Positions 22,878-24,543 of a DNA stretch of 25,756 nt are shown piece after piece. A program made the position numbers and the translations under genes. The stretch's first letter is position 1; every line of letters starts with the position of its first letter. Location of the stretch: the IMG/VR virus record IMGVR_UViG_3300032331_000368, positions 1 to 25,756 of that record. One strand, given 5' to 3'. Origin of the DNA: a virus. Under the pieces are notes generated by a model. That model searched no databases, was not told where the DNA came from, and saw nothing but the letters and a program-made list of their open reading frames with translations.

Positions 22878-23195
22878 CTACTTGCCAGGAGTCCATCCAA
22901 CATGGATGTCTTTGGTCCCGCCACTATTGACTTTAAGTTCAGGATTGTCACGAAGAAACTCATCCATAAATGCTTGGTCATTCCAGCATTCATATCCAAG
23001 CTTTTGTCCCCAAAAGTGAAATGCTGTCATTGGAATTCGCGCTCTCAATTGACCAAGCCCTTCAATAGACCGATGCCGATCTTTGTTTATTTCGCCAATA
23101 CGCTTTGACTCAATTTCAGCCTGTACCCTGTTTTGGTTCCAGCCAACACGAAGTTCTTTGTCCAGTTGATCAGCAAGTTTAGCGTCTAATTCCAT
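22878..23195 (-). CDS. Unknown 105-residue protein downstream of the tRNA
   Basis: The protein starts MELDAKLADQLDKELRVGWN, mostly helical and charged, followed by RIPMTAFHFWGQKLGYECWN and a short C-terminal beta-like part (GGTKDIHVGWTPGK). No family is recognised. The open frame extends upstream through the tRNA gene to 23261; that part is an artefact, so the ATG at 23195 was chosen, 5 bases after the tRNA CCA end. No ribosome-binding site can be seen there, and a later start (MTAFHF) is possible. The gene lies 3 bases upstream of the adaptor-like gene, suggesting a small head-completion or assembly protein by context only. Confidence 0.65.
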   Translation of the reverse strand: MELDAKLADQLDKELRVGWNQNRVQAEIESKRIGEINKDRHRSIEGLGQLRARIPMTAFHFWGQKLGYECWNDQAFMDEFLRDNPELKVNSGGTKDIHVGWTPGK

Positions 23196-23200
23196 AAAAT

Positions 23201-23275
23201 TGGTTGCGGGGGCAGGAATCGAACCTGCGACATGCTGCTTATGAGACAGCCGATCTACCACTGAGCTACCCCGCG
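23201..23275 (-). tRNA. tRNA-Met (CAT), with initiator-type acceptor stem
   Basis: The 75 bases fold as a complete tRNA. The acceptor is CGCGGGG against CCCCGCA, followed by an encoded ACCA end. The D arm is GCTC-AGTGGTA-GATC, with one C-T mismatch in the stem. The anticodon arm is GCTGT-CTCATAA-GCAGC, the anticodon is CAT, the variable loop ATGTC, and the T arm GCAGG-TTCGATT-CCTGC. The C1xA72 mismatch and the G2-C71, C3-G70 and G4-C69 pairs are the known acceptor determinants of bacterial initiator tRNA for formylation, and these ends are identical to those of E. coli tRNA-fMet. The anticodon stem, however, lacks the three consecutive G-C pairs typical of initiators, so the identity is mixed. 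A CAT tRNA modified to read isoleucine codons is a less likely alternative. Confidence 0.93.
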
Positions 23276-23278
23276 ATT

Positions 23279-23315
23279 AAAAAATTGGTGCGTGTCTCTC
23301 CACGCTGTCACACCA
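23279..23315 (-). terminator. Terminator-like hairpin between capsid gene and tRNA
   Basis: On the minus strand, TGGT and GCGT pair with ACGC and ACCA around a GGAGAGAC loop, with a six-base bulge on the 5' side, followed by a run of six T (23284-23279). It could end transcripts of the capsid gene, or be the 3' end of the structured RNA described separately. It lies only 3 bases from the 5' end of the tRNA. Confidence 0.5.
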
Positions 23316-23378
23316 TTTACCAAACGGGCTTTCGCTAACGGATGGCACTTGCGGCATGGAGCCACAGGCAGGTGTCGC
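23290..23378 (-). ncRNA. Repeated structured RNA element, copy B
   Basis: This is the second copy (in transcription order) of a two-copy element between the capsid gene and the tRNA. It begins with GCGACACCTGC (23378-23368), followed by about 53 variable bases, then TGGTGTGACAG (23315-23305) and a hairpin in which GCGT pairs with ACGC around the conserved loop GGAGAGAC. ACACC near the start can pair with GGTGT. The stem differs from copy A by paired changes, which supports RNA folding. No open frame explains the similarity. Confidence 0.55.
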
Positions 23379-23386
23379 AAAAGAAT

Positions 23387-23460
23387 GACCGTCTCTCCAG
23401 TCTGTCACACCACTTTTGTATCAACTGGTGCATGCACCAATCAACACTCGCAGGTGTCGC
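23387..23460 (-). ncRNA. Repeated structured RNA element, copy A
   Basis: This first copy begins 10 bases after the capsid stop codon with GCGACACCTGC (23460-23450). The variable middle contains the perfect palindrome TGGTGCATGCACCA (23439-23426). Then come TGGTGTGACAG (23412-23402) and a hairpin in which GACT pairs with GGTC around the conserved loop GGAGAGAC. Outside it, AAAAG (23417-23413) can pair with CTTTT (23383-23379). Copy B shares the conserved blocks but not the stem bases. The function is unknown. Confidence 0.55.
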
Positions 23461-23469
23461 GGAAGGCTA

Positions 23470-24543
23470 CTAGGAGCTGAAGTTGAACTTGCCGAGACCC
23501 AGTGGGTTCCCAACAACCAACCCAGCAACTGCTTCAATCAAGCGAGCAGGGCCACCACCGTAGTCAGGCAATGCCGTGACCTGAGCAACATTCCCACCGT
23601 AGCGCACTTCGATGAGGCTCATGTCAAGAACCAGACCTTTGTACGGAGTGGCAGTATAGCTGCTTCCGCTAATCGTTCCGAGAAACGTAGTAGGATGCAA
23701 GCGAACCGTGCCAAAGTCACCCTGGAACACGTCCATGGACTGGATGTAAGTGTCAGCAGCAGCATCACGCTGGAACGTCTGGATCTTGGTAGCACCGGCG
23801 GCAAGCGTGTTGCTGGAGTTGCTAACAGTGGTCAACGCCGTGGTGCCTAGCAAGCCCGTGAAGGCACGCTTCAAATCAGTCCCGACAATACAGTCAAACG
23901 ACTTGTACTGACCGGTCTGATCAAAGATAGACTTCAACAGCCCCTGCACCATCGTGTCAGTCAGTGTGGAAGCTGCAGCAGATGTTCCAACAATGGAGTT
24001 TGCTGGCGTAACAAAGGAAGGTGACGTAGTGCCAGATCCGATGTTAAGGCCAGTTCCGATGTTGTCGCCACCGATCCAAGACTGCGCACCTGCCGTGAGG
24101 TAGGGAACGCCACTTGCACCAGTGTCCTGCTGGCCAAGCTGATTGGAGGTGAAGGTCACTTCCATGTCACGCTTGAGGCCGATGATTGCCTTGGCAACGT
24201 TATCGGACAGCGAATCACGAACGCCGGCAACATCTGCCAAATCCTGAGCGAGCTTAGAAACACGCACAGTACGGCGGAAGATCTGCGCGTAGTTAGCTAG
24301 TTCTTTGCGATACCCATCAACAAAGTTGCTGTAGCTAGTTACGTCAGTACCGTCAATCGTCCCGCCAACCACTGGGGATGGGTTCTGATCTGCCTGCCAA
24401 CGGAAATACATATTTCCAGGCTTGCTGCCCTTGCGGGCCATAGATGTGAAAGGCGTGTCACGAGCGTCCACAAGGGCGATCATGTCAGCCAAGTCTTCGC
24501 GTTTGCCGCGACCGGATAGAGTAGGTTCAGTTAAAAGAGCCAT
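23470..24543 (-). CDS. Major capsid protein, SU10 type (former DUF5309)
   Basis: This 357-residue protein shows the signature of the SU10-type HK97-fold major capsid proteins. The N-terminus has GKREDLADMIALVDARDTPF, followed by YFRWQADQ and a conserved RRTVRVSKLAQ with nearby ANYAQIF (about residues 82-100), then GLKRDMEVTFTSNQ. Members of this family form the prolate or isometric heads of podoviruses such as SU10 and phiEco32. The order scaffold then capsid supports the call. The start at 24543 is 24 bases after the scaffold stop; no Shine-Dalgarno is seen. A terminator-like hairpin precedes it, and a pair of structured RNA elements follows. Confidence 0.92.
   Translation of the reverse strand: MALLTEPTLSGRGKREDLADMIALVDARDTPFTSMARKGSKPGNMYFRWQADQNPSPVVGGTIDGTDVTSYSNFVDGYRKELANYAQIFRRTVRVSKLAQDLADVAGVRDSLSDNVAKAIIGLKRDMEVTFTSNQLGQQDTGASGVPYLTAGAQSWIGGDNIGTGLNIGSGTTSPSFVTPANSIVGTSAAASTLTDTMVQGLLKSIFDQTGQYKSFDCIVGTDLKRAFTGLLGTTALTTVSNSSNTLAAGATKIQTFQRDAAADTYIQSMDVFQGDFGTVRLHPTTFLGTISGSSYTATPYKGLVLDMSLIEVRYGGNVAQVTALPDYGGGPARLIEAVAGLVVGNPLGLGKFNFSS

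Follow-up and report, generated by a model that had tools for sequence, protein, structure and literature searches.

The window, the whole 25,756-nt stretch of viral DNA analysed here, contains a short interval between the major capsid protein gene and a tRNA in which the same sequence blocks occur twice, raising the question of what this repeated segment is and what it does for the phage. Copy 1 (23460-23387) and copy 2 (23378-23290) are both encoded by the minus strand, and the pair follows the stop codon of the capsid gene at a distance of ~12 nt. On this strand, GCGACACCTGC is found at 23460-23450 and 23378-23368, TGGTGTGACAG at 23412-23402 and 23315-23305, and GGAGAGAC at 23398-23391 and 23301-23294. 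The arms flanking GGAGAGAC are ACT/GGT in copy 1 and CGT/ACG in copy 2, with C next in each. The first-pass annotation had described these blocks as a two-copy structured RNA whose arms differ and yet pair, and the blocks and arms are indeed present where it had placed them. With up to three mismatches allowed, the 3' block occurs twice in the window, compared with 0.16 occurrences expected. From 5' to 3' on the minus strand, the junction contains the following features.

23470-24543, minus strand: major capsid protein gene (phrog_1328, E 1.5e-40), upstream neighbour
23453-23457, minus strand: copy 1, 5' strand of helix P1 (ACACC), with GCG directly before it; assigned from sequence, P1 being supported by the family
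23412-23452, minus strand: copy 1, spacer enclosed by P1, with the long hairpin TTGATTGGTGCATGCACCAGTTGATACAA
23407-23411, minus strand: copy 1, 3' strand of P1 (GGTGT)
23403-23406, minus strand: copy 1, conserved linker GACA
23387-23402, minus strand: copy 1, hairpin P2 (GACTG-GAGAGA-CGGTC), supported by sequence, arm pairing and covariation
23371-23375, minus strand: copy 2, 5' strand of P1 (ACACC), with GCG directly before it
23315-23370, minus strand: copy 2, spacer enclosed by P1
23310-23314, minus strand: copy 2, 3' strand of P1 (GGTGT)
23306-23309, minus strand: copy 2, conserved linker GACA
23290-23305, minus strand: copy 2, hairpin P2 (GCGTG-GAGAGA-CACGC), 14 nt 5' of the tRNA; covariance model 31.0 bits, E 9e-6
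23201-23275, minus strand: tRNA-Met (CAT), next downstream feature

Copy 1 is matched by the covariance model at 23383-23461 (42.3 bits, E 1e-8). We note that an open reading frame with a GTG start (22878-23261) overlaps the tRNA, and the ATG at 23195 is its probable real start.

The element folds into two helices with the consensus R-ACNNN - spacer - NNNGU-GACA-GNNNG-GARAGA-CNNNC-A. P1 contains exactly 5 bp, and the spacer that it encloses ranges from 3 to >100 nt and may be a few nucleotides, a hairpin, or a large folded domain (Chloroflexi prophages, Pseudomonas phages). P2, also of 5 bp, is a hairpin capped by a hexaloop of purines. The pairing of ACACC with GGTGT, raised earlier from the window alone, is a real helix, namely the P1 found with compensatory changes throughout the family. 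The earlier description of a fixed apical loop between paired arms also stands, with its boundaries redrawn: the six bases GAGAGA form the loop proper, on a 5-bp stem whose closing pair is an invariant G-C.

Searches of other phages with the conserved blocks, proposed in the first-pass annotation, revealed homologues across bacterial phyla. At least about 290 non-redundant copies were found in phages and prophages of many phyla in public collections after near-identical copies were removed. The pattern TGGTGTGACAGNNNGGAGAGACNNNC, in which the arms are free, matched 77 viral contigs, where we estimate well under one chance match. The free arms pair in all 77 contigs (one copy with 2/3 pairs), and GACACC is found upstream in nearly all of their copies. 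A second pattern, GACANCCGGGAGAGACCGG, with the P1 block relaxed and one arm pair fixed, matched at least 120 contigs. One contig, L072, represents the window's own phage (99.96% over 9.9 kb) and is not independent. In bacterial genomes, one pattern matched 74 contigs from Alpha- and Gammaproteobacteria, Chloroflexi, Planctomycetes, Cyanobacteria, Spirochaetes, Clostridia and others, and covariance model R1 matched 50 of 50 genomes searched whole from this set, mostly with one copy apiece. The neighbours of the bacterial copies are largely prophage genes, including capsids, Mu-like gpT, S24 repressors, RecT and portal. The host range is wide but sporadic. Among 5426 Escherichia coli genomes, only 2 contain the form found in phage mEp390. 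Tandem copies a few nucleotides apart are found in the window, L003 and L035.

These homologues allow the two helices to be assessed separately. An independent scan with the loop GGAAAGAC (GAAAGA) left the P2 arms unselected, and all three arm pairs are formed in 74 of 78 non-redundant copies among the matches listed. For P1, 129 of 250 copies have a 5-bp Watson-Crick partner in the preceding 60 nt, compared with 38 expected when partners are permuted between copies, and a sixth pair shows no excess. The excess of partners is largest where the spacer measures 0-60 nt and has faded at ~150 nt. In an alignment of 74 diverse sequences, 8 of 10 pairs have changes on both sides, and the covariation score is 0.53, compared with 0.13 for shuffled alignments, none of 500 reaching 0.53. 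Because P1 was selected for pairing in this alignment, the claim for P1 rests on the partner permutation, the GAAAGA scan and the spacer-distance test.

Both helices change by compensatory pairs, with G-U pairs occurring in P2, around an unchanging GACA linker and loop. Across phyla, the linker, the loop and the closing pairs together keep ~20 near-invariant positions, and A is the first base 3' of P2 in 78% of 179 copies. Among unselected neighbouring copies, the loop is GAGAGA or GAAAGA, and the last linker base is A, rarely G, T or C. Arms that change without pairing, or loss of the conserved loops, had been named in advance as evidence against a functional RNA; nearly all homologue arms pair, and linker and loop are kept. 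These observations strongly support the earlier view of a functional RNA rather than a duplicated terminator.

Two other explanations of the repeat are already disfavoured. A weak intrinsic terminator or attenuator 3' of the capsid gene would agree with the window, where both copies are terminator-like in a loose sense, with a 5-bp stem and a T-run 2-4 nt on; a T-run is absent from most family members, including most copies outside the capsid group, and termination has no need of the conserved loop, the linker or P1; this reading is very unlikely. Even less probable is a DNA-level element that merely resembles RNA, such as a single-stranded hairpin promoter or a recombination or packaging site. 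Inverted repeats could give cruciforms, and tandem copies are known, but the G-U pairs in P2, the strand bias relative to genes and tRNAs, and the formation of P1 around spacers of 3 to >100 nt all argue against it. Candidates rejected by sequence include the cores of the hammerhead, pistol, hatchet and twister-sister ribozymes, as well as a CsrA sponge and an N4-type hairpin promoter, the last two being also at odds with the host range.

Comparison with Rfam 15 placed the element in no family. At the gathering threshold, the tRNA alone was matched in the window, and a search up to E=10 of 401 nt around the element gave no match to it. The element was likewise without a match up to E=1 at nine related phage or prophage loci. 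The fold and core match no family tested, and the element probably represents a new RNA family, whose mode of action may prove to be of a known kind.

The genomic context of the copies suggests what that action may be. The element is intergenic and in the sense orientation. Of 20 tRNAs that follow within 60 nt, all start 2-14 nt after P2 and 16 start 2-7 nt after it. The gaps between tRNAs at these loci vary more, with 38 of 79 at 2-7 nt (binomial p ~0.004). The gap between an upstream tRNA and P1 ranges from 16 to 122 nt. No antisense tRNA was found near the element among default tRNA calls. As a separate observation, the upstream tRNAs are mostly tRNA-Met (10 of 16; L012, L047, L060, L066, L094, L100, L104, L109, L221). 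The start codons of protein genes are also close: ATGs of open reading frames of at least 70 codons are enriched 10-40 nt 3' of P2 relative to antisense and upstream controls. A Shine-Dalgarno sequence is present in 56 and absent in 46 of the 102 genes that start within 45 nt of P2, and where present it is mostly 8-20 nt 3' of P2.

The junction between capsid and head-tail-adaptor genes recurs as a site of the element, with upstream capsids of phrog_1328 (9), phrog_371 (2), phrog_4523 (2) and phrog_10 (1) and downstream adaptors of phrog_195 (7 of 94). Among three possibilities left open earlier, a phage ncRNA, an mRNA-end element of the capsid transcript or a tRNA processing signal, the last two point to recurrent neighbours, capsid genes and tRNAs, neither of which is required. 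This combination favours a general 5'-boundary or leader role, and a 5'-boundary element is favoured by how closely the copies keep to the start of whatever RNA unit follows and how loosely to an upstream tRNA.

We tentatively propose, with a confidence that stays short of even, that the element is a cis-acting phage RNA marking the 5' limit of whatever RNA unit comes next, be it a tRNA, the ribosome-binding region of an mRNA or another structured RNA, and that it is most likely a processing site. The polycistronic phage transcript would be cut at or beside the 3' side of P2, which would free the downstream tRNA or an mRNA with a short leader; the upstream mRNA, that of the capsid in the window, would then end in the stable P2 hairpin. 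We infer this cleavage, its site and its agent, which could be the element itself, acting as a small self-cleaving ribozyme, or an RNase common to all bacteria; the wide and sporadic host range would fit either. The capsid/adaptor junction is a place where a phage would gain by separating a very abundant mRNA from the next. The near-invariant positions and the A that mostly follows P2 also count in favour of the proposal.

Several observations stand against this proposal. Compact phage genomes alone yield short gaps, and some copies in mEp390, Cronobacter phage CS01 and Medea1 lie 150-450 nt upstream of the next gene in long leaders, where a boundary function is not apparent. A single cut would also not require copies in tandem. 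Conservation 3' of P2 is only moderate, and the element forms no helix with the 3' product.

A precedent is provided by theta ribozymes, which process tRNA 3' ends in gut phages (PMC10879173). Like the element, these HDV-like ribozymes are small phage RNAs often found beside tRNAs; unlike it, they lie 3' of the tRNA and adopt a nested double-pseudoknot HDV fold. An assignment to the theta/HDV-like ribozymes was rejected, since the element has no HDV-family match in the Rfam searches above and lies 5' of tRNAs. That the element is instead a novel class of small self-cleaving ribozyme, used by tailed phages of many bacterial phyla to cut polycistronic transcripts just 5' of tRNAs and ribosome-binding sites, is a rather improbable idea that we nevertheless keep in view.

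The main rival to a processing boundary is an antitermination or anti-pausing RNA similar to put of phage HK022, a possible but doubtful reading. A nascent two-stem RNA would bind the host RNA polymerase and carry it through pauses, Rho sites and terminators, be it in an untranslated leader, within a tRNA cluster or at an operon junction. This would explain the early-leader and tandem copies better than a boundary would: the temperate phages mEp390, P7641 (Klebsiella), Medea1 and MinM2 carry copies in long untranslated leaders that open early operons. In mEp390, which belongs to the Hendrixvirinae like HK022, the element is found at the position of putL, in ~700 nt after the repressor side, and a second, variant copy is present. 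RNA polymerase is a universal partner, in agreement with the host range, and the two stems with a short linker, the sense orientation and the phage-gene neighbours would also fit a short cis-acting RNA of this kind.

However, HK022 putL and putR lack the GACA linker and the GARAGA loop, and their stems are longer and internally bulged. A hairpin with GACA and GARAGA is absent from 12 kb of HK022 spanning pL and pR, and in a test of whether the put RNA of HK022 belongs to the family, model R1 found no match in L276. The put folds are also more complex than the element, with a single unpaired G between the stems (PMC9378689), and identity with the HK022 put RNA was rejected by sequence and fold. 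In addition, put has been described 3' of early promoters in lambdoid phages, whereas phages of many phyla carry the element, with copies ahead of tRNAs and within late operons. Antitermination leaves the tight tRNA spacing unexplained, and intrinsic terminators show no clear enrichment downstream (17 of 261, controls 9-17). A search of the carriers for a phage single-subunit RNA polymerase gave no match, but the control search was likewise without any match, so that this negative carries no weight.

The element could alternatively be recognised by a conserved protein of host or phage, such as NusA, a ribosomal protein or an RNase, which would stabilise the 5' ends of mRNAs or control their translation. 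An invariant linker and purine loop amid freely changing helices are typical of such sites, and the element is often just 5' of the ribosome-binding region. Against this, translation control cannot account for placement directly before tRNAs, and no shared phage gene was found among the genes adjoining the copies; we regard such a site as unlikely. ANTAR targets are dual hairpins with A1 and G4 of a hexaloop in both. The element resembles them in having two hairpins with a hexaloop in one and differs in that GARAGA is confined to P2, the P1 loop being unconserved. RNase III sites of phage T7, which rank with put and the theta ribozymes as the nearest analogues, are intercistronic hairpins just upstream of ribosome-binding sites and have no conserved sequence core; they share with the element the position between phage genes and lack its invariant linker and loop.

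An earlier description of the motif was not found in the open-access papers searched, including work on put-like widespread elements, phage structured RNAs and phage ribozymes; many relevant journals lie outside this set, and a description may exist. The element is a common and strictly conserved phage RNA structure without a match among the catalogued families, for which model R1 is ready for annotation and bench use. If it is a ribozyme, it would be a new catalytic class; if an antiterminator, RNA-only antitermination would be far more widespread than the HK022 case. Either reading, if true, would show how long transcripts are partitioned or completed in many phages with no need of dedicated proteins.

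Further structured RNAs were observed near the element. A second hairpin, GAGCCCGCCAAGGCTAG-hairpin-CTCAAACCGGCGGGCCACT, recurs upstream or downstream of it in capsid-group phages (L007 near 2680, L025, L041, L100 and others); its stem bases change and its internal-loop sequences are fixed (9 copies, 7 distinct). The early leaders of mEp390 (L267:2106-2780) and Klebsiella P7641 (L273:2050-2610) are very long, apparently untranslated mosaics of conserved structured blocks without an Rfam match, and one 83-nt leader block recurs at 94% identity in phages of Xanthomonas and Pantoea. In Chloroflexi prophages (L277:8900-9360 and L278:5840-6260, minus strand), two elements ~200 nt apart each close a large domain, with a T-loop-like GGGTGCAARTCCC hairpin between them and, in L277, a tRNA directly 3'. 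ARAGORN predicts a tmRNA with the tag ANYDAIPQAA ~170 nt 3' of the element in another viral contig (L333:4727-5082, minus strand).
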